Notes under the pieces: model-generated
What the model saw: only the letters and a program-made list of their open reading frames with translations
Database searches by the model: none
Told to the model about the DNA's origin: nothing
Source of the DNA: an uncultured bacterium
GTDB taxonomy: Bacteria > Actinomycetota > Actinomycetes > S36-B12 > CAIKAW01
DNA length: 43,886 nucleotides
NCBI GenBank assembly: GCA_903825575.1
Contig: CAIKAW010000078.1
Location: 1-43,886, forward strand
Direction of reading: 5' to 3'
Part shown: positions 26,041 to 43,233 of the stretch, piece by piece
How positions within the stretch are numbered: position 1 is the stretch's first letter
Layout: each line of letters opens with the position of its first letter
Program-made: the position numbers and the translations under genes

Positions 26041-26454
26041 CTAGTTGTCCAACCAGGCGCGGACGAGCAACTCGATTACCTCGGTTGGTTCGTAGCCGTG
26101 AGCCTCCGCCTTGCGCGTCAAATCCTGCAGCAGCTCGGGGGTAAGGACGAGCCCTGTCGGTGGGTCGAGTTTGGCCTTTGCTTGGACCTTGTCTTTGCCC
26201 TTGGTCTTGTCTTTAGCTTTCTTCTTTGCCTTACCTTTGTGCTTGGGCTCGAGTTCGTCCGGCACCACAATGACCGGTCCGGTCAGGGTGTCGCTGGTAC
26301 TTGGGCGCTTCGATTTCTTTGATTTGGCGTCAGCCGAGTGGCCTGGGCTCTCGGTTGGCAGCGAACGCAGCGGAATTGGAAGTGCCGGACGGGCCGGATG
26401 GACCTCGGCGTCGGCTGATTTTGTTAGTGCCGGCCGCGGTGGCGGATTTGTCAT
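26041..26454 (-). CDS. Lys-rich protein with C-terminal RHH-like motif, ParA partner
   Basis: 137 residues, soluble. The N-terminal third is Pro/Ala-rich, the middle (about 70-95) is a run of Lys, Ala, Asp and Gly with repeated KGK, KAK and KDK units, and the C-terminus (about 101-135: LVLTPELLQDLTRKAEAHGY then EPTEVIELLVRAWL) has the strand-helix-turn-helix pattern of ribbon-helix-helix DNA-binding proteins. Its ATG overlaps the ParA stop by four bases (ATGA), so the two are co-translated. By analogy with ParA plus small RHH ParB-type adaptors it could bind DNA and stimulate ParA; the polylysine segment may bind nucleic acid non-specifically. No named family recognised. Confidence 0.65.
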   Translation of the reverse strand: MTNPPPRPALTKSADAEVHPARPALPIPLRSLPTESPGHSADAKSKKSKRPSTSDTLTGPVIVVPDELEPKHKGKAKKKAKDKTKGKDKVQAKAKLDPPTGLVLTPELLQDLTRKAEAHGYEPTEVIELLVRAWLDN

Positions 26455-27266
26455 TTCCGATCTCCAAACGCTAGAGCCCTGCCGAGAGCTGCCGTCTCGG
26501 AGACTTCGCGCCCCCTGATCAGCATCGTGTCAAGTAGATCATCGAACACGTCCGCAGCTTGCTGCGCGCCGGCTGAGTGCCACGCCTGAATTGGCAGGCA
26601 CGCACCTTGGGCTTGAGATAGCGCCGTGCGCTCCGGCACCGTCGGATCAAGTACTAGGTCGCCGTACACGGTACGCAGTTCAGCGAGCCGGAATACGTGC
26701 TCGGCCGTGTTGGGCCGGACCCGGTTGACGACGACCCCAGCCGTCTGAAGTCCCAGATTCGCCGCCGATCGGACCACTTCGATTGCTCCGATTGCTTGGG
26801 CCGCGCCTTGGAGTGCAAAGAACGATGGTTCGGTGACTACCAAGGCCAACTGAGCCGCCGCCAAGGCGTTTCGGGTTAGTTCACCGAGGGACGGCGGGCA
26901 ATCGATTAGGACCAGGTCGTAGTTATCGACCACACCTGTTAGGGCGATGCGTAGTCGTAGCGTCGACGCCCTGCCCTCTGGCACATTTCGGTGCTCCAAG
27001 GCTCGCTCGGCGCCAAGTACTTCAATGTGCGGACCCCAACCCGAAACACGAATGGCCTCAGCAGCGATGCCTTCACGGGCATCCGCCAGCACATCGTTGG
27101 TCGTGTATATCGGAGTTACGTCCAGGGCGGCGGTCGCATTCGCTTGGGGGTCAAGGTCAATCACTAGGGTGCGCAGCCCACGTTTCCAAGCCGCACCGGC
27201 CAGCCCAAGCACCACGGTGCTCTTGCCGACTCCTCCTTTGAGGGAGATAACTGCGATCGAGGGCAC
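26451..27266 (-). CDS. ParA/Soj-family ATPase
   Basis: 271 residues, cytosolic. The deviant Walker A motif SLKGGVGKST has both lysines (Lys10 and Lys15), and Walker B is VLIDCPPSLGELT. The body contains DLDPQANAT and VVTEPSFFALQGA, typical of ParA partition and positioning ATPases. It is not next to a ParB gene or replication origin, so it is an orphan ParA that may place a protein cargo or a plasmid-derived locus. GTG at 27266 has no ribosome site; AAACTT six bases upstream is a weak leaderless -10. Co-translated with the RHH-like gene. Confidence 0.88.
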   Translation of the reverse strand: MPSIAVISLKGGVGKSTVVLGLAGAAWKRGLRTLVIDLDPQANATAALDVTPIYTTNDVLADAREGIAAEAIRVSGWGPHIEVLGAERALEHRNVPEGRASTLRLRIALTGVVDNYDLVLIDCPPSLGELTRNALAAAQLALVVTEPSFFALQGAAQAIGAIEVVRSAANLGLQTAGVVVNRVRPNTAEHVFRLAELRTVYGDLVLDPTVPERTALSQAQGACLPIQAWHSAGAQQAADVFDDLLDTMLIRGREVSETAALGRALAFGDRK

Positions 27267-27302: not shown

Positions 27303-28652
27303 TCAGTTCGCGCGCAGTCTGCGCAAGGATTCCGTGCGTTCGACGCCGTGATCAACGATTCGCTCGGGATAGCCGAATGGGACAACACCTGCCAACTTCC
27401 ACGGTTCGTGCGCCGATGCGCCAGTTAACGTGCCAAGTTCCGGGAGGTAGCGGCGCACGTAGTCGCCGCTGGGATCGAATCGCAGACCTTGGGTGATCGG
27501 GTTGAACACGCGGTAGTAGGGCGCGGCGTCGGTTCCGGTGCCGGCTACCCATTGCCAGCCGTGCTGATTGCTCGCTAGGTCGCCGTCGCGCAACCAGTGC
27601 ATGAAGTGGCGAGCGCCCACTTGCCAGGGCAGGTGGAGGTCCTTGATCAGGAATGATGCGGTGATCATGCGGACCCGGTTGTGCATCCACCCTTGTGACC
27701 GCAATTGGCGCATCCCAGCATCGACTATCGGATACCCGGTCAACCCGCTCTGCCACGCGAGCAGTCGGGCCTCGGCAGTCGGGCCGGCGTCGGTAGTGAC
27801 ATGCGACAAGTTGGGCCGCAGGTCGTTACGGGCACTTCCCGGATGACGAGCAAGGATGTCTGCGTAAAAGTCGCGCCACGCAAGTTGGCGCCGGAACGCA
27901 TCGTCGCCCGCGCCGGAACCCAGGTCGGCCAGCAGGGTCCGCGGATGGATCTCACCCCACTTAAGGTGTGCCGAAAGCGCGCTGGTGCCCGATTGATCAG
28001 GGCGGTCGCGTTGCGTCGCATAGTGGGCCAGCCGGCTTTTGCGAAAGCCATCCCAAATCAGCGTGGCGGCGGCTTCACCCATGGGAGGCAGGACGGTTCT
28101 GCCTAGTTCGGGGGCTGCAGGTAATGGTTCGCTGCCGCTTGGATCCAACAACGGCATTGGCCCAGCGGGGGCAGCAACTGGCCGACGCCAGCCGTGGGTT
28201 GACCACGCGCGGTAGAACGGCGTGAAAACCAAGTAGGGCGTTGCGTCGGACTTCAGGACCCGACCGGGGGATACGGCATATGCCGAACCAGTTTCGCGCA
28301 GTTCGGTTCCGTTGCCGCCAAGTGCCTTAGCCACAGCTAGGTCGCGCTTGCGTCCGTATGGGCCAAAGTCAGCTGCGATGTGCACCGTGCGTGCGGCGTA
28401 TTCGCGAGCTACGTCAGGGACTACCGATTCGGGATCACCGGTGCGGATCAGCAATCGGCCGTCCAGTGATTCGCTCAGTGCGTTCAACGAGCCGATGAGC
28501 CACGCGCGCCGGACATCGCCAGAAGTGCGCCAAAGCGTGGGATCAATGACGAACAGCCCGACGGTTTCGCCAGCACCCTCGCTGAGCGCGTCGAGCAGGG
28601 CTGGGTTGTCGGCAAGCCGAAGGTCGCGGCGAAACCACATGACACTGGGCAC
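27303..28652 (-). CDS. deoxyribodipyrimidine photolyase (class I type)
   Basis: 449 residues. An N-terminal antenna domain begins MWFRRDLRLADNPAL, and the C-terminal FAD domain carries TGYPIVDAGMRQLRSQGWMHNR (split by helices), KDLHLPWQVGARHFM, QWVAGTGTDAAPYYRVFNP and a final YPERIVDH. This set fits cyclobutane pyrimidine dimer photolyase, which repairs UV lesions with light; a cryptochrome or (6-4) enzyme is less likely. GTG at 28652 has TAGCGT six bases upstream and no ribosome site. It runs in the same direction as the upstream TmsAB-like operon but has its own promoter. Confidence 0.9.
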   Translation of the reverse strand: MPSVMWFRRDLRLADNPALLDALSEGAGETVGLFVIDPTLWRTSGDVRRAWLIGSLNALSESLDGRLLIRTGDPESVVPDVAREYAARTVHIAADFGPYGRKRDLAVAKALGGNGTELRETGSAYAVSPGRVLKSDATPYLVFTPFYRAWSTHGWRRPVAAPAGPMPLLDPSGSEPLPAAPELGRTVLPPMGEAAATLIWDGFRKSRLAHYATQRDRPDQSGTSALSAHLKWGEIHPRTLLADLGSGAGDDAFRRQLAWRDFYADILARHPGSARNDLRPNLSHVTTDAGPTAEARLLAWQSGLTGYPIVDAGMRQLRSQGWMHNRVRMITASFLIKDLHLPWQVGARHFMHWLRDGDLASNQHGWQWVAGTGTDAAPYYRVFNPITQGLRFDPSGDYVRRYLPELGTLTGASAHEPWKLAGVVPFGYPERIVDHGVERTESLRRLRAN

Positions 28653-28695: not shown

Positions 28696-29952
28696 TCAGG
28701 GCGAGAGGTCTCGCTGTTGTTCCAACTGCAACCGCAATGGCATGCCGCTCTTGCCACTCGGGGCCGCCTTGACTGCAAGAAATTGGTGCAACTGGATTCG
28801 GTTCGCCTCGAAAGCCACTTGGCTGGCCACCAAGTAGAGCCGCCAGACTCGGGCCTTGCCAGGACCGACTTCGGCAACTGCCTGGTCCCAATGGGCATCA
28901 AGATTGGCTGCCCACGCTGCCAGCGTGAGGGCGTAGTGCTCACGCAAGTTCTCTTGGTGACGGCCTTCAAGTCCTTGGTTGGACATGACCGAAAGCAGAT
29001 GGCCGGGACCGGTCAGCTCCCCGTCGGGGAACACGTACCGGTTGATGAAGCCGTCGGGATACAGCGTTTGGCCAAGATCGTTCGGGCGAGTGATCGAATG
29101 GTTAAGCAGTCGTCCTTCGTAGCGAAGGCGATCTCGCAGGAATGAGAAGTAGAACGGGTAGTTGGCCTTCCCGATGTGTTCGGTCAATCCGATCGACGAG
29201 ACCGCGTCGAAGTCAGATTCGGTGATATCGCGGTAGTCACCGTGACGAATCTCGGCTCGGTCGGATATCCCACGTTCGATGATGACCTGTTGTCCCCAAC
29301 CGGCTTGCTGGGCGCTCAGGGTTACGCCGATTGCGCGGACGCCATAATTCTCCACGGCGTGCCGGACCATGCCTCCCCAGCCACAACCGACATCAAGAAG
29401 CCGTTGTCCGGGCTGTAGATCAAGTTTGCGGCAGACCAAGTCGAACTTCTCGGCCTGAGCTTCTTCCAACGATGCATCGGCGTGTGAGTAAACGGCACAG
29501 GTGTACGCCATCGATGGGCCAAGTACCCACGAGTAGAACTTGTTCGAAACGTCGTAGTGATGGCTGATTGAAGCGGCATCCCGACGCTTCGTGTGTCGGT
29601 CCCCTGCCAGATTGACTTCCTCAGGTGGTACCTCAATTCGGCGACGGTAATAAGGCAACAGCGTTCGCCCGATCTGGAATTTCTCGGTCGGCGTGAACTG
29701 CCGCTTACCCACGTCACCAAGGCGGCTTAGTGCTCCGTGCAGGCTGCCTTCGATGTCAATCTCTCCGGCGACATATGCGCGAGCCAAGCCGAGTTCGCCG
29801 GGCGAGGAGGCCAAGTACTGCAGCGCCCGCTCTGATCGCAAGTTGATCTGGACGTCGGCGTCAGGATTGCCGGCTCGGCTGCCATCAAAGGCCCGAAACT
29901 CCAAGTCCGGACGTTCGCCTGCGATCAACTCAAACAGGTTTGCCAGCTTCAT
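28696..29952 (-). CDS. CFA-synthase-like fatty acid methyltransferase (TmsB-like)
   Basis: 418 residues, a SAM-dependent methyltransferase of the cyclopropane-fatty-acid synthase family that acts on unsaturated phospholipid acyl chains. An N-terminal lipid-binding domain (1-110) is followed by ISHHYDVSNKFY (about 129-140), the SAM loop LLDVGCGWGG (185-194) and GLTEHIGKANYPFYF. The gene directly upstream encodes a TmsA-like flavoprotein, and such pairs make 10-methylene and then 10-methyl stearate (tuberculostearate-type) in Actinobacteria, so I read it as TmsB-like rather than a cyclopropane synthase. ATG at 29952 has AGGAG in a good position; the in-frame GTG at 29967 overlaps that ribosome site. 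Confidence 0.82.
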   Translation of the reverse strand: MKLANLFELIAGERPDLEFRAFDGSRAGNPDADVQINLRSERALQYLASSPGELGLARAYVAGEIDIEGSLHGALSRLGDVGKRQFTPTEKFQIGRTLLPYYRRRIEVPPEEVNLAGDRHTKRRDAASISHHYDVSNKFYSWVLGPSMAYTCAVYSHADASLEEAQAEKFDLVCRKLDLQPGQRLLDVGCGWGGMVRHAVENYGVRAIGVTLSAQQAGWGQQVIIERGISDRAEIRHGDYRDITESDFDAVSSIGLTEHIGKANYPFYFSFLRDRLRYEGRLLNHSITRPNDLGQTLYPDGFINRYVFPDGELTGPGHLLSVMSNQGLEGRHQENLREHYALTLAAWAANLDAHWDQAVAEVGPGKARVWRLYLVASQVAFEANRIQLHQFLAVKAAPSGKSGMPLRLQLEQQRDLSP

Positions 29953-29974
29953 CTTCAACTCCTTCACGCCGGCA

Positions 29975-31354
29975 TCAGCTTCGACCGACGGTCTTCGCGT
30001 ACAGCCCCGGAAATCTGCTGACCGGATCGTACTTGCTCTTCAGTTCTTGGTAGGTCAAACCACCATAAAGTTTGGCGAACTCGTCTTCGTCGTAGTACGC
30101 GGTTGAGTACAGAGACTTGCGGCCAGCTAACTCGGTGACCTTGGCTTCGATCAAGCGATTGATACGAGCAGCTTCGCCCGATTCGCCTGGGGGCAGCGCC
30201 ACGCTGGACCAGAAGCCGACGTTGACGTAGGTGGTCTGCGGGTCGAGCTCGTAGAGCGGCCAGCGCAAGCTTGCATCACGTTGTTTGAGCGGGCAAAGCC
30301 AGATTGGACTCAGTCCGACGCACGCGTCGAAGAACTCGAGGAACTCACCAAGGGCCGCAATCGGGATCTCAACGTCTTGGACGACATACTCGCGCTCCGG
30401 TCGACCGCGCAAACGGTCCACGCGGCGACTGAACCCGTAGTGGCGATCGGCCGAGACGAGCTTCCAGTAGACGTCGCTTCGGCGCAGGTGTCGGGGCCAG
30501 AACCTGCGGACGATGGGGTGTTGAGCGCCGAACGCCCGCGAGCACCAGAACCAGTCGGTATCCCAGCGCCACAGATAGTCATGCGTGGTAAGTACGTCCG
30601 TCGAGCGACGCGGGATCGAGCGGTAGTAGATGTCCTGCCCCGTGTAGTTACTCGGCACCGTTGCGGGGTCGATCGAGTCGACTAGGCGCCCCAGCGTCAG
30701 GTATGACTCCTGCGCCGAGAATCGGGTGCCGTCCATGAAGTCAACTTGCTGGCCATCCCAAACGTGTGACCCGGTGATTTGCGCGATAGCTTCGGATAGC
30801 GACGCAACGTCCGCAAACTTGATGTGTCGCATTTGAACGAACTGAGGTGCCGGTTCCAATTCGATGCGTAACCGCAAGGCGTAACCGAGACTTCCGTACG
30901 AGTTTGGGAATCCGAAGAACAATGCGCGATTTGGATCGTCGTGTGCTGGCGTCACCGTAAGAACTTCACCGCTGCCTAGCAGCAGGTCCATTTCGAGAAC
31001 GCTCTCGTGTGGGCAGCCATTGCGGAAAGATGCCGACTCGATGCCGAGGCCGGTTACGGCGCCGCCCAAGGTGATCGTCTTCAACTGTGGAACGCACTTG
31101 GGCATAAGCCCGTGCGGCAAGGTAGCCGCAACAAGGTCGCCGTAAGTTGTCATACCGCCGACATCGGCCGTTTGGGCGGCCTGGTCGATGCTGAACACGT
31201 GTGCGAACTCACTTACGTCAAGGCGACTACCGGCATGCGCGGAGCGAGGTCGAAACAGATTTGAGGTCGGCTTTCGCAGTCGAATCGGACTGCCTTCCGG
31301 CAATGATCGATAGGCGCGTTGCAGGCGGTCTCGGGCCGCGATGTATTCAGTCAT
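29975..31354 (-). CDS. FAD-linked oxidoreductase (TmsA/BfaA-like)
   Basis: 459 residues. The FAD-binding PCMH/VAO-type domain includes ADVGGMTTYGDLVAATL, PKCVPQLKTITLGGAVTGLG (a DHCR24-like block) and GFPNSYGSLGYALRLRIELE. Homologues of this type reduce the 10-methylene group of a fatty acyl chain to 10-methyl, next to a TmsB methyltransferase. The gene lies 22 bases upstream of the TmsB-like gene and its start overlaps the end of the acyl-CoA ligase gene by eight bases, so all three are one operon. Function is inferred from family and context; a different alkene reductase role is possible. Confidence 0.8.
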   Translation of the reverse strand: MTEYIAARDRLQRAYRSLPEGSPIRLRKPTSNLFRPRSAHAGSRLDVSEFAHVFSIDQAAQTADVGGMTTYGDLVAATLPHGLMPKCVPQLKTITLGGAVTGLGIESASFRNGCPHESVLEMDLLLGSGEVLTVTPAHDDPNRALFFGFPNSYGSLGYALRLRIELEPAPQFVQMRHIKFADVASLSEAIAQITGSHVWDGQQVDFMDGTRFSAQESYLTLGRLVDSIDPATVPSNYTGQDIYYRSIPRRSTDVLTTHDYLWRWDTDWFWCSRAFGAQHPIVRRFWPRHLRRSDVYWKLVSADRHYGFSRRVDRLRGRPEREYVVQDVEIPIAALGEFLEFFDACVGLSPIWLCPLKQRDASLRWPLYELDPQTTYVNVGFWSSVALPPGESGEAARINRLIEAKVTELAGRKSLYSTAYYDEDEFAKLYGGLTYQELKSKYDPVSRFPGLYAKTVGRS

Positions 31355-33407
31355 GGGTCGAACCCAGCACGATGCGCGCGTCCAGGGCTACGACCCCAGT
31401 TGGCGACACGAACAGTGGGTTGATCTCGAACTCTGCAATCTCGGGGTGCGCGGAAGCTAGTTCACTGAACTTGGCGATCGCTTCGGCTGCAGCGTCGACG
31501 TCCAAGGAAGGTCGCCCGCGAGCGCCAGTCAGCAGCCCCGCACCGCGCAAATCCATCAACAACTCTTTAGCTTGCTGCGCGGAGACCGGCGCTAGGGCCA
31601 GTGCAGTGTCGCGAATGATCTCCGTGTAGACCCCGCCGAGCCCGACGAGGAGCACAGGGCCGAAGCGCGGATCCTGTCGCACCCCGACGATTAGCTCGAC
31701 CCCGACACTTAGATCGGCCTGTTCTTCAACGGAATAGGAAGTCGCAAGCAATGCGGTGTCCATCACGGCGTACGCAGCGCGCAATTGTTGTTCGTCTTCA
31801 AGACCCAGTGCGACTCCTCCGCTGTCGGACTTGTGCAGCAACCCGTTCGCCTTCAGTACCAACGGATACCGCAGAGAGCGTGCCGCATCCAGCACCTGTT
31901 GGGCCGTTGTTGCATTGGTGGCGCGCACGATCGGCAAGCCGGCCTTAGCCAGGACTTCACGGGCAGCGACGTAGTCGTCAGCAACCACGGGAGCGGCTGA
32001 TGCCGGGAGCGGCAAGACCAGTTGTGGTGGGTCAAACGTGGCTCGCGACAGTGCGTAGATCGCGTCCTCGACGGCGGCAAACACGGCAACTCCGCCGTCA
32101 CGCAGCGCCTGCATGGAGCGGCTGTCCGGAAACATCGAATGAACGACGGTTGGGAGATTCTGTGCGGTCATGATCTCGGCCATCCGAGTTGTCGCAGCGA
32201 CCTCCAACTCGGCAAGTCCTTGCGCAAAGGCGTCCTCTGTGGAGTAGCCGCCAAAGTAGCCAGTGACCAAAAGTGCGTCTATCTCGCCCGATTCCAGTAG
32301 CCGCTGGGTACCGCGAGCGAAACACATCGGGTCCTGTTCGCCGTAACCGGCGACATCGACGGGGTTAGACGTGCCTGCTCTTTCCCATAGATCGCGGGCA
32401 AGGTCAGCCTGCAGTGCCGTCGAGAGTTCAGGAACGGTTAGGCCATGGGTTTCCGCCAAGTCGGCCGAGATCGTTCCGTGTCCGCCACCGTCGGTAAGGA
32501 TGGCCATGCGATGGCCGGGCCGCCGCTGTGGCCGAGTCAGCATGGAAAGTACATCGGCGAGTTCGCGCGGCGTATGTACGAGATGCGCACCGGCTGCGCG
32601 ACAGGCCGCCGCAACGACATCCCCGTCGGACGCGAGCGAACCGGTGTGTGACGCAGCGCTACGCGCTGCCGCGGCGGAACTGCCTGGTGCCAGCACGACC
32701 ACTGGCTTGCCGCTCGCGACAGCGCTTGCAGTGGCGGAGACGAAGCCACGACCGTCGCGGAAGTCCTCGGCGTAGATGGCGATGGCCTTTGTGGCTGGAT
32801 GGGCCGCGCAATCGGCAATGAAATCGGTCAACGTTACGTCGGCCTGGTTGCCGATCGATACAAAGCGCGAGAACCCCATTCCGCGGCGCACCAACAACTG
32901 CTGCAGCTCGAGGGCAAGGTTTCCACTCTGCGATAGCAGCGCGACCGACCCTGATTCGAAAGGGTCAGATGCAAGGTATAGCTCAGTCGTGTTGTCGACG
33001 ATGCCAAGACAATTCGGGCCCACCAGCATCGCCCCGGCCGACCGTACGGCTGCAACAACTCGGTCCTGCGTTTCCAGTCCGGCTGAGTCGGTCTCGCCGA
33101 GCCCGGCGGTGATCGCCAGAATCACTTTCGCGCCCTGCGCTAACGACGCAACCACGCTACTTTCGAACGAGGCTGCAGGGACGCAGATCACTGCCAGATC
33201 GACGCTTCCTGGAATGTGTGCCAGCGACGGCAGGGTCGCTTGGCCGTAGACGTCTCCGCCGCGGTGATTGATCAAGTAGATCGGCCGATGCGACGTGCGT
33301 AACGCCTGTCGGGATACCGCGTTTCCCCACTTGCTCGCGTCACTACTGGCGCCGACGATGGCGACGCTGGCTGGGTCGAACAGCGCGGACAGGTTCCGGG
33401 TCGCCAA
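31347..33407 (-). CDS. ADP-forming acyl-CoA ligase (acetate--CoA ligase family)
   Basis: 686 residues with the fused alpha-beta layout: CoA-binding Rossmann domain (LFDPASVAIVGASSDASKWG, residues split at 10-27), ligase domains with GPNCLGIV and the phosphorylated His in ASHTGSLASDGD, then a C-terminal ATP-grasp domain (YPLVLKANGLLHKSDSGGV, about 510-528, and FGPVLLVGLGGVYTEI). It makes an acyl-CoA from an acid, ATP and CoA or runs in reverse. I prefer the TTG start at 33407: GAGGAG lies five bases before it, whereas the GTG at 33413 directly abuts the site. Overlap with the TmsA-like gene suggests a role in activating or releasing fatty acids, which is unusual beside tms genes. Confidence 0.85.
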   Translation of the reverse strand: MATRNLSALFDPASVAIVGASSDASKWGNAVSRQALRTSHRPIYLINHRGGDVYGQATLPSLAHIPGSVDLAVICVPAASFESSVVASLAQGAKVILAITAGLGETDSAGLETQDRVVAAVRSAGAMLVGPNCLGIVDNTTELYLASDPFESGSVALLSQSGNLALELQQLLVRRGMGFSRFVSIGNQADVTLTDFIADCAAHPATKAIAIYAEDFRDGRGFVSATASAVASGKPVVVLAPGSSAAAARSAASHTGSLASDGDVVAAACRAAGAHLVHTPRELADVLSMLTRPQRRPGHRMAILTDGGGHGTISADLAETHGLTVPELSTALQADLARDLWERAGTSNPVDVAGYGEQDPMCFARGTQRLLESGEIDALLVTGYFGGYSTEDAFAQGLAELEVAATTRMAEIMTAQNLPTVVHSMFPDSRSMQALRDGGVAVFAAVEDAIYALSRATFDPPQLVLPLPASAAPVVADDYVAAREVLAKAGLPIVRATNATTAQQVLDAARSLRYPLVLKANGLLHKSDSGGVALGLEDEQQLRAAYAVMDTALLATSYSVEEQADLSVGVELIVGVRQDPRFGPVLLVGLGGVYTEIIRDTALALAPVSAQQAKELLMDLRGAGLLTGARGRPSLDVDAAAEAIAKFSELASAHPEIAEFEINPLFVSPTGVVALDARIVLGSTHD

Positions 33408-33461: not shown

Positions 33462-34214
33462 TCACGTGGCGTAGTCAGGCGCAACCCTGTCGAGCAGCCG
33501 CAGCAGGGCCGCCCAGGCTAGGTCGTAGCCGTACGGATCTGGGTAGTCGACCACTACGTCGCCCCGGAACTGGGCGGCCGTGAACTCGCAGACTTCCGGC
33601 CTGGGCAGGCGCACGGGCCCGGCAGCGAGTGCGTCGATTTGGATTTGGCAGGCCTGGTCTAGGTAGTACATCCGCAGGAACGCTTGGGCGGGCGTCGAAC
33701 CGACCGTTAGTAGGCCGTGGTTCCGCAGGATCAGCGCCGGGTAAGCGCCAAGGCTGGCCACGAGTCGCTCCTGCTCGGCCAGACTCTGGGCGATCCCTTC
33801 GTAGTCGTGATACCCGACTTGGTCGTAGAACTCCAAAGAGATCTGGTTAACCGGTAGCAGTCCCACTTCGCTCGCCGCGACGGCGCAACCGGCCCGCGAG
33901 TGAGTGTGCAGAACGCAGTGGGCGTCCGGTCGGGCTCGGTGAATGGCCGAATGAATCACGAACCCGGCCGGATTTATGGCTAGGGCGTCCGGGTCGAGCA
34001 GGGCCCCGGCGTTGTCGACCCTGACGAGCGAACTTGCCGTGATCTCGTCGAATAGCAGCCCGTAAGGGTTGATTAGGAAAGTCGCTTCTGGGCCAGGCAG
34101 GCGGGCTGAGATATGGGTGAAGATCAAATCAGTCATTCGGAAGTGGTGGACCAGGCGGTAAGTGGCAGCAAGTTCGCAGCGCAGTCGCCATTCAACGGTG
34201 ACCGGATCGTCCAT
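33462..34214 (-). CDS. class II aldolase/adducin-family protein
   Basis: 250 residues, cytosolic. The zinc-binding pair His103 and His105 (LHTHSRAG) and a third His in RNHGLLTVG are conserved. The family Glu used as acid/base in fuculose-phosphate aldolase is replaced by His88 in FVIHSAIH, as in many adducin-like members whose reaction is not known. ATG at 34214 has GGAGG upstream; the longer open frame begins inside the promoter region of the divergent transporter gene. It may handle a sugar or hydroxy-acid substrate, but the sequence does not say which. Confidence 0.8.
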   Translation of the reverse strand: MDDPVTVEWRLRCELAATYRLVHHFRMTDLIFTHISARLPGPEATFLINPYGLLFDEITASSLVRVDNAGALLDPDALAINPAGFVIHSAIHRARPDAHCVLHTHSRAGCAVAASEVGLLPVNQISLEFYDQVGYHDYEGIAQSLAEQERLVASLGAYPALILRNHGLLTVGSTPAQAFLRMYYLDQACQIQIDALAAGPVRLPRPEVCEFTAAQFRGDVVVDYPDPYGYDLAWAALLRLLDRVAPDYAT

Positions 34215-34348
34215 AGGCGCTCCTCCGGAGTTCACGGCAGGGTAGCCGAAAGTCAGCAACTTCACGCGATTTCGGACTCGCCTACAGGTCCGCCGCGCCA
34301 TACTGACGCTCGGATCGTTGCTATTTGCGAACAGTCTGCCTTTCTTCA

Positions 34349-34377
34349 TTGACACCGCCCGTTCGCGCCTGTTGCAT
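34349..34377 (+). promoter_or_regulatory. possible promoter of the ABC operon
   Basis: TTGACA (34349-34354), 17 bases, TTGCAT (34372-34377). The -35 is perfect and the -10 poor (second base T). It lies 26 bases before the GTG start of the substrate-binding gene. Confidence 0.45.
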
Positions 34378-34402
34378 GCACGCACAACCCAATGGAGGTC
34401 TT

Positions 34403-35563
34403 GTGGAGCAATCCTCGTTCGATCGTCGTAAGTTCCTCGGCGGCACTGCTGGTGCAGTCGGTGGAGCGGCGCTCTTGGCAGCCTGTGGTAGCCCGGCGAG
34501 CAATACCACGCCGTCAGCGTCCGTTTCTCGGCCGGCCGTCGCTGCCGAGTCTGGCAATTTGTCGATCCTCGAATGGGGCGGCTACGAAGCCGCCGGAACC
34601 AAGGCCCAGACGGCAGGCATGACAGTCGCCGGGGCGGACTACACCACGAAGTACGGCACGAGTGGCCTGACGTATACCTACATCACAAACGACGACCAAG
34701 GCCTGCAGAAGGCGACGTCGTCAGGACCGTTCGACATCATGCATCCGTGCCACGAGAACATCAAGGACTACGTGGACCGTGGGCTGGTACAGCCGTGGGA
34801 CCCAGAACTGCTAGCAAGTTTCGGTGACCTGAACCCGTATCTGGTGAAGCAGGGGCAGGTAGACGGCAAGCAGTACATGATTCCGTGGGACTGGGGCTAC
34901 GCGAGCCTTACCTACCGCACCGACCATGTCGATGCGGCCGACGCCACCGGATGGGACCTGCTGTGGAACCCGAAGTACAAGGGCAAGGTCTCGATGTGGA
35001 ACGGTGCGTCATCGGCCTTCGAAGTCGCCGCTTTGGTGCTCGGGTACCCAGACATGGACAACTTGACCGCTGACCAGATTTCGGCGGCCAAGGCCAAGCT
35101 GATCGAGCAGAAGCCGAATAACAAGTTCTACTGGGATAGCGAGTACAGCCAGATGCAGCCGGCGGTTAAGTCCGGGACTGTATGGGTTGCCTACTCCTGG
35201 CAGGACACTTTGGTGTCGATGAAGTCGGCCAATGTGCCGGTGGCATTCATGAACCCGACTCAGGGCCGGCTGTCTTGGTTCTGCGGCTTCATGCTTGGCG
35301 CCAAGACAGAGAACTACTACCACGCCCACGACTACGTTGAGTCGTTCATCAACGAGGCGGCCTGCGTCCAGATGACGAACGCCTACGCCTATGGCACCTC
35401 GAACACCAAGGTGACGCCTGACAAGGTCACCGACCAGGCCCTTGCGACATCGCTGGGTCTTGGCGACCCGCACGCGCTCGAAGGTGCCAGCGTGCACCTG
35501 CAGAGTTGGCAGGCCAACAAGGCTGCTGTGGAACTGGCGTGGCAGGAGGTCAAGTCCGCCTAA
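34403..35563 (+). CDS. spermidine/putrescine-type ABC substrate-binding lipoprotein
   Basis: 386 residues. The signal has a Tat-like twin-arginine stretch (FDRRKFLGG, Arg8 and Arg9) and ends in the lipobox LAAC with Cys28, so the protein is probably folded, exported and lipid-anchored. The mature part is PotD-like: NLSILEWGGYEAAG, FDIMHPCHENIKDYVDRG, IPWDWGYASLTYR and WVAYSWQDTL. GTG at 34403 has GGAGG upstream. It is followed by two permeases and an ATPase, a complete polyamine-type importer. The exact ligand is inferred from family only. Confidence 0.9.
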   Translation: MEQSSFDRRKFLGGTAGAVGGAALLAACGSPASNTTPSASVSRPAVAAESGNLSILEWGGYEAAGTKAQTAGMTVAGADYTTKYGTSGLTYTYITNDDQGLQKATSSGPFDIMHPCHENIKDYVDRGLVQPWDPELLASFGDLNPYLVKQGQVDGKQYMIPWDWGYASLTYRTDHVDAADATGWDLLWNPKYKGKVSMWNGASSAFEVAALVLGYPDMDNLTADQISAAKAKLIEQKPNNKFYWDSEYSQMQPAVKSGTVWVAYSWQDTLVSMKSANVPVAFMNPTQGRLSWFCGFMLGAKTENYYHAHDYVESFINEAACVQMTNAYAYGTSNTKVTPDKVTDQALATSLGLGDPHALEGASVHLQSWQANKAAVELAWQEVKSA

Positions 35564-35579
35564 TTTGGCGGCCCTGACC

Positions 35580-36506
35580 ATGGCCATTTCGACAAAGGTG
35601 ACTGCGCAACGCAGCCCTGGCCCTGGGCGTTTTCGCCCGGGCCGGGGCTCGTTGGCGATTCCGCCGTTGCTGTTTGTGCTGGTCCTGTTACTTGGCCCCA
35701 TCATCTTTATCGGGCTGTTTAGTGTTGGACTTCGCTCAAATATCCCCGGCGCGTCGGTTGCGTTCACGTCGACTAACTGGCATGACTTCCTGTTCTCGGC
35801 CGGGAATCCGTTCCGAAAGCGCTTTGCCTACTCAATGGAAGTAGCTCTCGCCGTCAGTATTTTGACAACTATCGCGGCGTTCCCGTTGGCGTATTTCCTT
35901 TCCTTTGTCGCTCGTAAGCACCGATATACCTACTTGCTCCTGTTATTGGCTCCGTTCTTTACAAGTTTCCTGCTGCGCGTCATTGCTTGGCAGATCATGC
36001 TCAACGACAACGGAGTCGTGAATTGGCTGGTTCAAGCGATCGGACTACAGCCCCATGGCGACCCAGTGAAGTGGCTGATCTATTCCAACTTCTCGGTTGG
36101 ACTTGTCTTGTTCTACTCGTGGGTCCCGTTTGTGGCGCTGCCGATCTTCGCGGTACTAGAGAACATGGACCACAAACTGCTCGAAGCGGCATCAGACCTA
36201 GGTGCCTCACGGTTGGCGACTTTTCTACGCGTGACGCTGCCGCTGAGTCTGCCCGGCGTTATCGCCGGCTTCGTTTTTGTGCTGATCCCAACGACCGGCG
36301 AGTTCATAACACCGCTGTTCGTTGGTGGGCCGAACAACCAACTATTCGGCAATTCGATCCAGTCGTTCTTCAGTGATTCCCCTGACTGGAACTACGGCTC
36401 AGTGCTCGCGGTCACGTTGGTTGCAATCGTCCTGCTGCTCATGCTCGTTTTTGGGCGGTACCTGAATACTGATCTCCGGGCTGCCCCCTCTGGTGGTGAC
36501 AAGTGA
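35580..36506 (+). CDS. ABC permease, PotB-like
   Basis: 308 residues, six TM helices after a cytosolic Arg/Pro-rich N-terminus. The coupling-helix motif for the ATPase is EAASDLGASRLATFLRVTLP (EAA motif) near residue 200. PotB-like features include the long first external loop and the block FFTSFLLRVIAWQIML. The ATG at 35580 lies 16 bases after the binding-protein stop with only a weak ribosome site. It overlaps the second permease by four bases (GTGA). Confidence 0.88.
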   Translation: MAISTKVTAQRSPGPGRFRPGRGSLAIPPLLFVLVLLLGPIIFIGLFSVGLRSNIPGASVAFTSTNWHDFLFSAGNPFRKRFAYSMEVALAVSILTTIAAFPLAYFLSFVARKHRYTYLLLLLAPFFTSFLLRVIAWQIMLNDNGVVNWLVQAIGLQPHGDPVKWLIYSNFSVGLVLFYSWVPFVALPIFAVLENMDHKLLEAASDLGASRLATFLRVTLPLSLPGVIAGFVFVLIPTTGEFITPLFVGGPNNQLFGNSIQSFFSDSPDWNYGSVLAVTLVAIVLLLMLVFGRYLNTDLRAAPSGGDK

Positions 36507-37372
36507 GAGCCACCGGGCGCTTTGGATCGGCAGCCCTCACGCTGTACTTCTGGGCTTTTGTGGTGTTCCTGATTTCGCCGCTCGTAGTGCTCGTCGTGTT
36601 CTCGCTAAACAACAGCACGACACCGTCGCTGCCGCTGTCGGGATTCACGACAAAGTGGTTCCATGCGGCGTTTACAAATGGCGAACTCACTGGCGCGCTG
36701 CTGCGAAGTGCCGAGATTGGGGTTGCCGCGTCGGTCGGCGCGACTCTGCTGGGAATCATGGCGTCAATCGGTCTCACGGCAAAGAAACTGCGCCTGCGTT
36801 CATTCACTGTCGCGCTGCTTCTGCTTCCCTTGGTTATCCCCTACATCTCGTTAGCGGTCGGACTTCTTATTCTGCTGCAGGCGCTGGGAATCCAAACGTC
36901 CCTGGCAGCTGTCGTACTTGGGCATGTGGTTATAACACTGCCCTTCTCGATCTTGGTTGTCTTGCCGCGACTTCGCTCACTCGACCCTTCAATGGTGGAG
37001 GCAGCCCGCGATCTAGGTGCGTCCGACTTGACGGCCTTCCGCCTGATCACGTTGCCGTTGCTAGGGCCATCCCTGATTTCGAGCTTCCTGATCTGCTTTG
37101 TCACGAGCTTTGACGAGTTTGCGATCGCGAACTTCCTTGCCCCTTCTGGCACTCCGACCTACCCGGTATTCCTTTACTCGAGCTCACGAACGCCAGCGCT
37201 ACTTCCGGAGGTGATCGCCGTCGGCACTTTGGTAATCGCTGTTTCGTTGGTGCTCGTGCTGCTGGCCGAAGGCGGACGCCAATGGGCTGAGCGACGTATC
37301 GTCGGCACTTCGAAGCCTGACTTCGATGGTGCTGAGTTATCCAACGATCTGGCCGCGCTTGGCCGGGCCTAA
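36503..37372 (+). CDS. ABC permease, PotC-like
   Basis: 289 residues, six TM helices. The EAA motif is EAARDLGASDLTAFRLITLP. PotC-like pattern: N-terminal LISPLVVLVVFSLNNSTTPS (partly periplasmic) and FDEFAIANFLAPSGTPTYPV. The GTG start at 36503 overlaps the PotB-like stop (GTGA), so the permease pair is translated together. The ATPase follows after 14 bases. Confidence 0.88.
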   Translation: MRATGRFGSAALTLYFWAFVVFLISPLVVLVVFSLNNSTTPSLPLSGFTTKWFHAAFTNGELTGALLRSAEIGVAASVGATLLGIMASIGLTAKKLRLRSFTVALLLLPLVIPYISLAVGLLILLQALGIQTSLAAVVLGHVVITLPFSILVVLPRLRSLDPSMVEAARDLGASDLTAFRLITLPLLGPSLISSFLICFVTSFDEFAIANFLAPSGTPTYPVFLYSSSRTPALLPEVIAVGTLVIAVSLVLVLLAEGGRQWAERRIVGTSKPDFDGAELSNDLAALGRA

Positions 37373-37386
37373 GAAGAGGAGAAGTC

Positions 37387-38481
37387 GTGACGGGTGGGCA
37401 GGTGCGGCTTACCGCACTGACCAAGCGCTTCGGTGATTTTATTGCCGTTGACGGCATCGACCTTGATATCCCGGCCGGCGAGTTCTTCTCGCTGCTCGGA
37501 CCTTCCGGGTGTGGCAAGACCACAACGTTGCGGATGATTGCTGGCTTTGAGCAACCGACGAGCGGCGAGGTGTTGATTGACGGGCAGGACGTTGCAGGGA
37601 CTTCGCCGAGCAAGCGACCCGTCAACACCGTTTTCCAAAGCTATGCGCTCTTTCCCCATTTGAAGATCTGGGACAACGTTGCTTTCGGCCTAAGACGCGC
37701 CCGAGTCCGCGGTGACGAACTTAAGCGGCGCGTTGACGATGCGCTCGAGCTCGTGCAGCTCGGCAGTCTTGGCAACCGCAAGCCGGGCCAACTATCTGGC
37801 GGACAGCAACAACGCGTTGCGCTGGCTCGGGCGCTTGTCCTCAAGCCGTCGGTGCTGCTGCTTGACGAACCGCTCGGCGCCTTAGATGCGAAACTTCGCC
37901 GGGCTTTGCAGGTTGAACTCAAGCAACTGCAAGAGCAGGTCGGCATAACCTTCGTCTACGTGACGCATGACCAGGAAGAGGCACTGACTATGAGCGACCG
38001 GATCGCCGTGATGAACGGCGGCCGGGTGGAGCAAGCTGCGCCTCCCAATGAGGTGTACGACGAACCCGAGACTGCGTTCGTCGCGGATTTCCTCGGGGTC
38101 TCGAACTTGATGGATGCGACAGCGGAGGGGGCTGACGGGGGCGCGGCTGCAGCAGTGACTCTCGCCGATGGTGTTGTGCTTGAAGCCCGGCGCGGCGATG
38201 TGCACATGCGTGGGCCGGCGAAGGTCGTCATCCGTCCGGAGCGGATTCGGATTGAGGCCGCTGGCGGTACCGGACCGAATCGAGTCGCGGGCATGGTGCT
38301 GCGCACGGTGTATCTCGGTGCCAGTCGCCAAGTCTTCGTTCAACTTGCCACTGGGCACTCGGTCACAGTCCTTGTGCAGAACAGCGGGGACGAGACCGGT
38401 GCCGATACGACCGTTGATCTGCCAAGCGGGACGCCCGTTACATGTTTTCTTCCGGCTACCGCCTTGCGAGTTCTTTCCTGA
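37387..38481 (+). CDS. ABC ATP-binding protein, PotA-like
   Basis: 364 residues. Walker A GPSGCGKTT (38-46), Q-loop VFQSYALFPH, signature LSGGQQQRVALARAL, Walker B VLLLDEPLGALD and H-loop VYVTHDQEEAL are complete; a C-terminal TOBE-type domain (about 240-364) follows, as in PotA. It powers the permease pair upstream. GAGGAG precedes the GTG. The stop overlaps the ATG of the next gene by one base (TGATG, 38479-38483). Confidence 0.92.
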   Translation: MTGGQVRLTALTKRFGDFIAVDGIDLDIPAGEFFSLLGPSGCGKTTTLRMIAGFEQPTSGEVLIDGQDVAGTSPSKRPVNTVFQSYALFPHLKIWDNVAFGLRRARVRGDELKRRVDDALELVQLGSLGNRKPGQLSGGQQQRVALARALVLKPSVLLLDEPLGALDAKLRRALQVELKQLQEQVGITFVYVTHDQEEALTMSDRIAVMNGGRVEQAAPPNEVYDEPETAFVADFLGVSNLMDATAEGADGGAAAAVTLADGVVLEARRGDVHMRGPAKVVIRPERIRIEAAGGTGPNRVAGMVLRTVYLGASRQVFVQLATGHSVTVLVQNSGDETGADTTVDLPSGTPVTCFLPATALRVLS

Positions 38482-39092
38482 TGCCTTGCGCCGACCGGCG
38501 GCGCATGTCCCGCAATTTGCTGACGGGAGTAGCCGTGGGGGTACTCGCTGCTTGCGGCGTGGCTGCCTCGCCTGGGTCGGCGACACCATCGGCCACTGGC
38601 CCGACGGCCGCCCAGGTTGCTTCACTGCTGCAAATCCCTGCATTGCCCCAATTGGCTGTGGTGACCAAATTGGTGACGGCGGCCGACATTGCTAAAGATG
38701 CCTCGATCCCAGGCTTTGCTGACTCCATCACGGGCTTCGGCTATGCCGCTGGCGTTCAACGCACGTTTCAAGGGCCGTCGAAACACCTAACTCTGGCCAT
38801 TAGTCGAACGTTGACGTTTGCTACTCCAACGGGTGCCGCCGGATACGTCGCTTATGTGCGCACGCACGCAACTACGTATTTTGGCATCGGCGCAGATATC
38901 AGCGCGCTGACATCAAGCGGGCGCCGCGGGTGGCTCTACGTGCCCCCAGCCTGCGCCTGCCACATGGCTAATCCCGATGTGATCGGACTTGTGAGTGACG
39001 GCCCGTACGTCGTCTCCCTTGAGATCAACGGCCCAGACGCGACACCAGCGCTGCTGCGCCGGCTACTTAACAACGTCGGACCCAGAACGTGA
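38481..39092 (+). CDS. exported lipoprotein of unknown function
   Basis: 203 residues (195 if ATG at 38505 is used). A basic start (ADRRRMSRN), hydrophobic helix and lipobox LAAC (Cys25) make it a lipoprotein; then a Ser/Thr/Ala-rich linker and a soluble domain with no family I recognise. Near residues 155-164 is VPPACACHMANP, where Cys158, Cys160 and His161 could bind metal or haem. The one-base TGATG overlap with the PotA-like gene favours 38481 and makes it part of the ABC operon. It could be an accessory of the importer or of the HbpS/GlcG-type neighbour. Confidence 0.6.
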   Translation: MPCADRRRMSRNLLTGVAVGVLAACGVAASPGSATPSATGPTAAQVASLLQIPALPQLAVVTKLVTAADIAKDASIPGFADSITGFGYAAGVQRTFQGPSKHLTLAISRTLTFATPTGAAGYVAYVRTHATTYFGIGADISALTSSGRRGWLYVPPACACHMANPDVIGLVSDGPYVVSLEINGPDATPALLRRLLNNVGPRT

Positions 39093-40130: not shown

Positions 40131-40772
40131 ATGCGCATTTCCCGTATCGCCGCCGGTCTTGCGGCTACTGCCGCAGTCGCCATCGGTGTTGCAGTCATTC
40201 CAGCCGGCGCCGTTACCGCGCCCCCAACCCGTCCCGCGACGATCGCGACAAATCTTGGCACTTTGGGCCTGCTTACCGCCAATGGCGTGACCCTCGGTGA
40301 GACAGGCGCCCTCAGCGCAACCGTCGGAGGAATCTCCCTGGGCGGATATCCCTACCCGACCGTCCCGAACCTAACGATGTCCTTCGCGACGACCAAGCTA
40401 AGTGCGACCAAGTTGGCCTTGGCTGGAACGCTCGTGTTCCGTCGCGGTGCTCACATCGTGACGATCAGCAACCTGAAGCTTTCGCTTAATGCGGCAGGTA
40501 CGGGCGGTTCCGTGAGCGGTTGGATTGCCGCCACTGGCTTCCCGGCACCGACGGCGGCGGCTAGCGCCTTCTACCTGCACAACGTGCATGTGACCGTTAC
40601 CTCGAAGTATGGCCACACTTGGACGACTGTCACTGCCGTTGTCCAACTCCCGACTGGAGCCGTGGGTACTGCTGTGGTTGGGGCACTTACTGCTTACCTC
40701 GGCTTGGGCGCACCGATCTTCGCCCCTGGCACCGACATCGCGACTGCGGCGGCCTTCGTCCTGCGCAGCTAA
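40131..40772 (+). CDS. secreted protein of unknown function
   Basis: 213 residues. A signal peptide (MRISRIAAGLAATAAVAIGV, cleavage near AGAVTA) is followed by a Gly/Thr/Ala/Val-rich mature domain with many short predicted strands and no cysteine. No family recognised. GGAGG lies five bases before the ATG. The 149-base upstream region repeats CCTAG-based motifs at 40038, 40063 and 40080. A perfect 13-bp terminator follows, so the gene is monocistronic. Confidence 0.75.
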   Translation: MRISRIAAGLAATAAVAIGVAVIPAGAVTAPPTRPATIATNLGTLGLLTANGVTLGETGALSATVGGISLGGYPYPTVPNLTMSFATTKLSATKLALAGTLVFRRGAHIVTISNLKLSLNAAGTGGSVSGWIAATGFPAPTAAASAFYLHNVHVTVTSKYGHTWTTVTAVVQLPTGAVGTAVVGALTAYLGLGAPIFAPGTDIATAAAFVLRS

Positions 40773-40779
40773 TTTCGAT

Positions 40780-40823
40780 CTGACTTGGTGGGGGCTTCTC
40801 AGCGGTTCCCACCAAGTCAGTTT
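40780..40823 (+). terminator. intrinsic terminator of the secreted-protein gene
   Basis: A perfect 13-bp stem (40780-40792 / 40808-40820) with a 15-base loop, followed by TTT. Confidence 0.85.
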
Positions 40824-40942
40824 CCAGCAGATCTTGACCCAACGCTCGGTATGTTTGCGCCTTGGGGGCTGTGCCGCTGCCCGGTTTGGGTGTACCCATA
40901 GGGCTGGGGGCGACCGTTGACGCTACTAGGCATGGAGGCCAC

Positions 40943-41500
40943 ATGCGCAGGACGCTGATTATCGGTTTGAGCGCTGCAGTTCTGGGGGCTCTGGCGGTGC
41001 TGCTGGGCAGTTTGCTAAACCTTGGCTTGACCGATGTTCTCTTGGGCGCCGCGTTGGGCGCAGCTCTCGGGTTGATTCCCGGTGTTGGGCCCGGTCGCAA
41101 GCTTGCTGCCTTCCTTGTCGGCTTTGTCTTGGCGTGGGTCGGCTACGCCATTCGCGCTGCTGTGCTTCCCGATGTCACGGCGTCTAGGGCGATCGTCGTA
41201 TTCCTGTCGGTATTCCTGATCACAATCGCCTGCGCCTTCTCGCGCGGTCGGTTGCCTTTGTGGGCTGCGTTCCTCGGTGCAGTCGCCATGACCGGTGCTT
41301 ACGAGTTCACGTATGCGGCCGCACCCTACAACTTCATTAGTGACTCGGTATCGACGGCGACCGGCATCCTCGTCCCGATCGGCTTTGGCTTTCTCGTCTC
41401 GGTGATCGCGGCGTTGTTGCCGGAAGAGGATCGGCATTGGGATCCCCCGCAGGATCCCATGCCAAGCGCTTCTTCGGCTAAGGCTGAGGTGAGTTCATGA
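40943..41500 (+). CDS. polytopic membrane protein coupled to the xxxLxxG-repeat gene
   Basis: 185 residues, about five TM helices rich in Gly, Ala and Leu (for example VLLGAALGAALGLIPGVGPG, about 32-51), a charged loop GPGRKL and a hydrophilic, acidic-then-Ser-rich C-terminus (about 160-185). No named family recognised. ATG at 40943 has GGAGG four bases upstream. The stop overlaps the next start by four bases (ATGA), so the two products are made together and probably work together in the envelope. Confidence 0.75.
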   Translation: MRRTLIIGLSAAVLGALAVLLGSLLNLGLTDVLLGAALGAALGLIPGVGPGRKLAAFLVGFVLAWVGYAIRAAVLPDVTASRAIVVFLSVFLITIACAFSRGRLPLWAAFLGAVAMTGAYEFTYAAAPYNFISDSVSTATGILVPIGFGFLVSVIAALLPEEDRHWDPPQDPMPSASSAKAEVSS

Positions 41501-43233
41501 GCGCCCGACGCAGCAGAGTTACTCGGTTGGTTGTACCCGGAGTTGCGGGGCTTTTGGTGCTCGCAAGTGCGAGCGCAGGTGTTGCGGGCGGGTCGGTCAA
41601 CGTCGTAGTACGTAAGACGGTACTGATCACGCTCGGGCCTGACGCGAAGGCGACGAGTCAGCGGACTTACACCCAGATCACCGCGACTGGCAGCGGTTCG
41701 GTTCAGATTAGCGACCTGATCGGGCCGGCACCACTTCGCAATCTGAACGGTTTCGCCGCGCCAAACGTCTCTAATCTGAAGGCCTCCTACGACCTCAGCG
41801 TCAATGGACGTTCCGACCGTCGCACGGTTCAGGATTTCACCTGGAAACTGCCAATCGGAATCTCGGTGGCCGCCACCCTAGACGGGGCAGCGATATCCCC
41901 CGCCGACGTGGTGGGGAAGACCGGTTTGCTTAAAGTCACCTACACGGTGACGAACACCTCGGGGGTTAGCCAGACCTTGCAGGTGCCAGACGGCCACGGT
42001 GGCACCGTTGCTAAAGACGTGCTCGTGCCGATCCCGCTGGTTGGCACTATGGCCACAACGCTTCCTGCTTCCTTTGCCGCTGTTGACGCGCCGGGTGCTG
42101 CTGCCGGTGGCGATGGGCATGGCGGAACCTTGTTGTCGTACACGCTGCTGATGTTCGACCCGTTGGGCGCAAGCACTGCGACATTGAGCTACCAAGCCCA
42201 GTTGTCGAATGGGTCCTTGCCTTCGGTTGAGTTCCAGTTCTTGCCAGTGGCTCCGGATGCTAACCCCACGACTAAGAGCGCCCAGGACCAGTACCAGGGC
42301 GGCCAGAACACCGGTCAGCAACTGACCGACGGCGCAACCACAATCGACTCGAACCTGTTGAAACTGCAGGCCGGAGCCGGGCAGTTGCTTGCGGGATTGC
42401 AGAAGTTGCAGGCCGGTGCCACACAGCTCTCGGATGGGTTGAACGGTCAGGCAGCCCCAGGTGCGAGGCAACTAGCCGGGGGGCTTGATCAGGCGAAGGC
42501 CGGCGGAGTCAAGTTGGCGGGCGGGGCGAGTTCCCTGTCAAGTGGATTGCAATTGGTGAACGTGATCCTTTCGTCACTGGGGACTACCGGATACACCGAA
42601 GCAGGTCAGCCAGGATCGGACCTGTCCAAGGCTTGTCTGGCCGCGAGCGTCACTTGCCCATCGCCTGCAGTGGCTCGCGTGGTTGCCACCTGGGCGGCTT
42701 CGCAGGCCCTGATTTTCTTCGGGTCCAGTGCCAAGGGTTGCGACCCGACTGCTGGGCTGGTTTGCGGTGCCGCAGCGCTCGCAGCCGGAGCCTCTCAGTT
42801 GCTGGCCGGTTTGACCCTGCTCGATGCTGGTTCGCACACGCTGTCAACTGGTCTGGATGCAGCTGGCAGCGGCGCTGCGCAGATCGCCGCCGGGCTTGGG
42901 CTTGCTGTTCCCGGGGGGACCCAAATCCACTCGGGCGCCGGACAACTATCTGCGCTCGGTACCAAGAAGTTGATCGCCGCTGGGGTTGACACCGTGAGCA
43001 CCTTCGGACAGAAGTACGCATTGATGCAGGCACTTAATGCCCGCATCGCGGCCGGCGACGGCATCCCGAACGGCCCGGCCACGGGTACGGGCGTGGTCAC
43101 CACCGGGGCATATGACTTCCGGTTAGCGGCCGCGAGCCGAGACGCAAACACGAATCTGATTCGACTTCTGCTCATCGTGATCCTGTTTGCAGGTGGGTTG
43201 GGGCTCACGAAGGTGCTGCACCGCACGCATTAG
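41497..43233 (+). CDS. exported, membrane-anchored protein with X-X-X-Leu-X-X-Gly repeats
   Basis: 578 residues. A signal peptide (about 1-30) is followed by a beta-rich domain (about 35-250, with VGKTGLLKVTYTVTNTSG typical of extracellular Ig-like folds), then heptad-like repeats of the X-X-X-L-X-X-G type (about 275-365 and 425-480: LQAGAGQLLAGLQKLQAGA, ASQLLAGLTLLDAGS), and one C-terminal TM helix (LLLIVILFAGGLGLTKVL). Such repeats are known from YhgE/Pip-type and other actinobacterial envelope proteins and probably form long helices. Four cysteines in the middle (about 375-424: KACLAASVTC and KGCDPTAGLVC) may form disulphides. Coupled to the upstream membrane protein; function unknown. Confidence 0.78.
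   Translation: MSARRSRVTRLVVPGVAGLLVLASASAGVAGGSVNVVVRKTVLITLGPDAKATSQRTYTQITATGSGSVQISDLIGPAPLRNLNGFAAPNVSNLKASYDLSVNGRSDRRTVQDFTWKLPIGISVAATLDGAAISPADVVGKTGLLKVTYTVTNTSGVSQTLQVPDGHGGTVAKDVLVPIPLVGTMATTLPASFAAVDAPGAAAGGDGHGGTLLSYTLLMFDPLGASTATLSYQAQLSNGSLPSVEFQFLPVAPDANPTTKSAQDQYQGGQNTGQQLTDGATTIDSNLLKLQAGAGQLLAGLQKLQAGATQLSDGLNGQAAPGARQLAGGLDQAKAGGVKLAGGASSLSSGLQLVNVILSSLGTTGYTEAGQPGSDLSKACLAASVTCPSPAVARVVATWAASQALIFFGSSAKGCDPTAGLVCGAAALAAGASQLLAGLTLLDAGSHTLSTGLDAAGSGAAQIAAGLGLAVPGGTQIHSGAGQLSALGTKKLIAAGVDTVSTFGQKYALMQALNARIAAGDGIPNGPATGTGVVTTGAYDFRLAAASRDANTNLIRLLLIVILFAGGLGLTKVLHRTH

Follow-up and report, generated by a model that had tools for sequence, protein, structure and literature searches.

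The closest described counterparts of the locus analyzed here are the BfaAB proteins, which convert phospholipid-bound oleate into a 10-methylene intermediate and then into 10-methylstearate; BfaAB alone yields this product in E. coli, with neither a partner ligase nor further genes (PMC5660069, PMC7791843). Conservation of the bicarbonate site serves as a criterion for BfaB (PMC7791843).

The window, i.e., the whole stretch of 43,886 nucleotides that was analyzed, contains such a pair on its minus strand. The genes tmsA/bfaA (29975-31354), coding for a predicted FAD-dependent methylene reductase of 459 aa, and tmsB/bfaB (28696-29952), coding for a predicted SAM-dependent 10-methylene transferase of the CMAS family (418 aa), are preceded by a gene for a 686-aa ADP-forming acyl-CoA ligase of the ACD/NDP-forming superfamily (31347-33407). 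The ligase gene starts with TTG at 33407, preceded by gaggag, and its end overlaps the start of tmsA by eight bases (atgactga, 31354-31347), as read directly from the sequence; tmsA stops at 29975, and 22 bases separate it from tmsB, whose ATG at 29952 is preceded by a good ribosome-binding site (gaaggag). This spacing confirms that given in the preliminary description of the locus, which had also spoken of a three-gene operon. The adjacency and the overlap stand, but a functional three-gene unit is not supported, and the boundaries of such an operon are arbitrary: the same-strand run extends from a class II aldolase/adducin family gene (PRK07044 subfamily; 33462-34214), located 54 bases before the ligase gene, to a DNA photolyase gene (phr; 27303-28652), 43 bases after tmsB, and, 36 bases further, a ParA-family ATPase gene (parA; 26451-27266). 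Divergent from the aldolase gene, the plus strand carries a potD-potB-potC-potA-type ABC transporter (substrate-binding protein, two permeases and ATPase; 34325-38481), in which the exact start positions of potD and potB are uncertain. These four flanking features were assigned by their domains. Co-transcription of the ligase gene with the tms genes is plausible, and the short overlap probably means that, in this lineage, the genes are transcribed together and translationally coupled without belonging to one pathway. Based on gene order, gene families, conservation and the missing linkage elsewhere, all of which were directly observed, we consider it very probable that independent modules abut here in a single uncultured lineage; a pathway shared by the ligase and the tms genes is unsupported.

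The ligase combines CoA_binding_2, Succ_CoA_lig and ATP-grasp_5 domains in one chain (Pfam and NCBIfam), and the region of the catalytic phosphohistidine is conserved, as is characteristic of ADP-forming acyl-CoA synthetases. Its nearest characterized relatives are 3-hydroxypropionate, 4-hydroxybutyrate, acetate and DMSP enzymes. The protein is thus predicted from its sequence to be a catabolic ADP-forming enzyme, and its substrate is most likely a short or polar carboxylate rather than a long-chain fatty acid. The genomic contexts of 21 relatives provide a catabolic setting, and the ligase most likely forms part of a separate cluster for the import and degradation of small molecules. Neighbors were counted by tblastn, ORF clustering having given spurious long ORFs in high-GC neighbors. 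A Pot-type ATPase gene (at least 50% identity) lies within about 8 kb of the ligase gene at 13 of the 21 loci, 11 of which display the divergent order found in the window, with potA, potC and potB pointing away from the ligase gene. Pot-type ATPase genes at that identity number only about 1-5 per genome, and a single, weaker match (43%) was found among 110 tmsA loci, the same locus having been fetched twice. Further neighbors include acyl-CoA dehydrogenase, enoyl-CoA hydratase, Rieske oxygenase, BetI-type regulator, amine oxidase, amino-acid dehydrogenase and TPP decarboxylase genes. At three loci (L137, L140 and L172), the ligase relative sits in a tight run with amino-acid dehydrogenase, TPP-dependent decarboxylase and acyl-CoA dehydrogenase genes, which looks like an uncharacterized route of amino-acid breakdown.

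Could the ligase act on DMSP as a DddX-like lyase, or on a quaternary-ammonium carboxylate, with the transporter supplying the substrate? DddX (7cm9) is among its best solved relatives (E 1.4e-71), and BetI-type TetR, GbcA-like Rieske and amine oxidase genes occur near some ligase relatives. Nevertheless, the cation-pi contacts of DddX are made by Trp391 and Phe435 (PMC8163506), and the window has Ala and Val at the aligned positions; DddX identity was rejected on the absence of these substrate-binding residues, and the broader proposal appears very unlikely.

The order potD-potB-potC-potA recurs at four loci (L177-L180), and, together with a further orf, these genes form their own module in relatives and recur without tms; at L180 (G206), the aldolase gene, whose product is 74% identical to that of the window, diverges from potDBCA-orf. 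This orf corresponds to the small gene 3' of potA in the window (38442-39092, plus strand), which codes for a putative lipoprotein with no Pfam match; relatives are found directly after potA at five loci (L177-L181), a position that assigns the predicted gene to the transporter module. Near the contig end, the window also carries three co-directional ORFs (40131-43233; 213, 212 and 578 aa) whose products appear exported or membrane-like and have no Pfam matches. The window PotA is 70-73% identical to copies located elsewhere in the same genomes, not to the ligase-adjacent ones; the window transporter is therefore not the orthologue of the transporters found next to ligase relatives. The ligase-adjacent transporter in relatives is another paralogue, which weakens the case for a conserved pairing of the ligase with the window's own transporter. 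As judged from these comparisons, the ligase-transporter association holds at the level of the subfamily, and membership of the ligase in the aldolase-transporter module of the window is tentative.

The preliminary description had suggested that the ligase might serve the 10-methyl pathway, either by recycling released acids or by supplying acyl groups. In a survey of 102 distinct tmsA loci, comprising those of named genomes and those from genomes of the window's own order, no ADP-forming ligase gene was found near tmsA with four ligase queries (E at or below 1e-3), the upstream sequence available being at least 500 bases at 100 loci, at least 1 kb at 96 and about 8 kb at 49. An order-level sample of 80 genomes contained TmsA in 49, a close ligase relative in nine and both in five; this co-presence (five of nine) is what chance would give and shows no co-occurrence. 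Drawing on 166 order-level genomes and 395 sampled from the class, TmsA was sought in 27 genomes besides the window's own that have a ligase relative: 12 lack it and 15 carry both genes, never together but on separate contigs or at a distance. The closest pair among these 15 is separated by about 12 kb and several genes (G020), and in the complete genome G444 the two genes lie at 2.1 versus 5.0 Mb, almost 3 Mb apart. Linkage outside the window thus amounts to none of 102 tmsA loci and none of 27 ligase-bearing genomes; linkage found only here, the outcome that the preliminary description had named as contrary to its proposal, was what the survey returned in all genomes searched. The window's family was represented by a single genome, its own, and linkage could be conserved in close relatives that have yet to be sequenced.

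The proposed tie is thereby left unsupported, because linkage and co-occurrence are missing, the ligase keeps other neighbors and BfaAB functions independently of a ligase. A lineage-specific helper of the 10-methyl pathway, re-activating acids released from phospholipids or supplying acyl-CoA, would agree with the eight-base overlap, the common strand and the short gaps. Set against this, neither linkage nor co-occurrence is seen elsewhere, BfaB works on phospholipid-bound chains and requires no ligase (PMC7791843), and the characterized ligase relatives use acetate, 3-hydroxypropionate, 4-hydroxybutyrate or DMSP; we therefore give the helper role very little credence. No greater weight attaches to the specific version in which a catabolic ADP-forming ligase was recruited to the tms operon in an uncultured Nanopelagicales-like lineage and activates phospholipid-released fatty acids. 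If true, a ligase-tms link would add a new salvage route to the synthesis of branched lipids. More generally, close spacing of genes in a single genome says little about a shared pathway when the gene order is not conserved.

The flanks of the tms genes bear on how the junction may have arisen. Downstream, the order tmsA-tmsB-phr-parA is common to four relatives (L007, L008, L009 and L014). Immediately upstream of tmsA, 22 of 37 order-level relatives carry a conserved divergent, head-to-head gene that is absent from the window. Its product, of about 204-250 aa, apparently has a single membrane anchor and an outer domain, and gives no Pfam match; examples include L001:2569-3258, L002:1179-1790, L004:7199-7948, L006:7313-7960 and L007:7254-7904, among others. 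No match to this gene was found anywhere in the window's genome, an empty search being weak evidence. The head-to-head gene is a better tms-associated candidate than the ligase. In the ligase tree, the window sequence groups with other families (f9, f13 and f24) and not with its own order (support 99/96), although its branch is long and its finer placement weak; this position would agree with horizontal acquisition or with old paralogy. By GC content, the ligase gene does not stand out as foreign. Together, the conserved downstream flank, the altered upstream flank and the ligase tree suggest that the ligase block may have arrived beside tmsA in this lineage.

The identification of TmsA and TmsB made in the preliminary description held up well. 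TmsB matches the CMAS domain (3e-93) and TmsA the FAD_binding_4 domain (1.5e-11), and the adjacency of a CMAS-family methyltransferase and an FAD_binding_4 oxidoreductase in the order A-B is that of BfaAB/TmsAB. Scanning named genomes for TmsA revealed 80 loci with 54-64% identity, in Nanopelagicales, Micromonospora, Actinomadura, Nocardia, Rhodococcus, Gordonia, Mycobacterium and others. TmsB adjoins TmsA at all 80, and accompanies it in 102 of the 102 distinct TmsA relatives. Of the near-invariant residues, the window retains 129 of 133 in TmsA and 99 of 100 in TmsB (the latter defined from 96 relatives). In an alignment with the CFA synthase of E. coli (6bqc), TmsB conserves the Cys, Glu, His, Ile and Tyr positions that we take to form the bicarbonate site. 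These sequence features support an ordinary actinobacterial pair for 10-methyl branched membrane fatty acids. That TmsB is instead a cyclopropane synthase beside an unrelated oxidoreductase is scarcely credible: it belongs to the CMAS family and its best solved relatives are CFA synthases, but its relatives are universally paired with TmsA, its near-invariant residues are kept, and its GLTEHIG motif is common to 90 of 97 TmsB sequences, versus GMFEHVG in solved cyclopropane synthases. The window's genome encodes one candidate fatty-acid desaturase, which could provide the unsaturated substrate for TmsB. It also encodes one other CMAS paralogue, 29% identical to TmsB and with no TmsA neighbor. 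This paralogue (L175; G000:C81:22660-23460) carries VEMIEAVG in place of the Glu-His motif usually found at the bicarbonate site, and lies next to an apparent DUF1365-type gene and a GGDEF-EAL gene.

Independent modules abutting here would number two, probably three: the aldolase-transporter module, the ligase, whose relatives favor a different Pot-type transporter, and tmsAB-phr-parA. Judging from their families and from published work, TmsB would add a SAM-derived methylene at C10 of a mono-unsaturated acyl chain bound in a phospholipid; the flavoprotein TmsA would reduce this methylene to a 10-methyl group. In the ligase, ATP would phosphorylate the conserved histidine, and the phosphate would move from the histidine to the carboxylate before being displaced by CoA; this carboxylate would most likely be imported or produced by the neighboring aldolase/Pot-type transporter cluster. 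Against the independence of the modules speak the tightness of the eight-base overlap, the single genome from the family and the mismatch of transporter paralogues. With this locus, canonical 10-methyl fatty acid genes are assigned to an actinobacterial lineage that is uncultured and freshwater/environmental, a finding of modest value for lipid biomarkers.

Within the ACD superfamily (3-hydroxypropionate-/4-hydroxybutyrate-CoA ligases 9y43/8wzu, acetate-CoA ligase and DddX 7cm9), the window ligase shares the domains and the phosphohistidine region, but its NCBIfam scores fall far short of the cut-offs set for the named enzymes, and it lacks the sulfonium-binding aromatics of DddX. TmpBA resembles the window in pairing a methylene transferase with a flavoprotein, yet has a reversed gene order and an unrelated reductase (PMC7791843); the window is of the Bfa type. 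With BfaAB/TmsAB of Mycobacterium chlorophenolicum, Thermomonospora curvata and Thermobifida fusca (PMC5660069, PMC7791843), compared at the level of genes, the upstream gene is the sole difference: the A-B order, the families, the near-invariant residues and the short spacing are those of the window, and the loci found are, like the window, confined to Actinobacteria.
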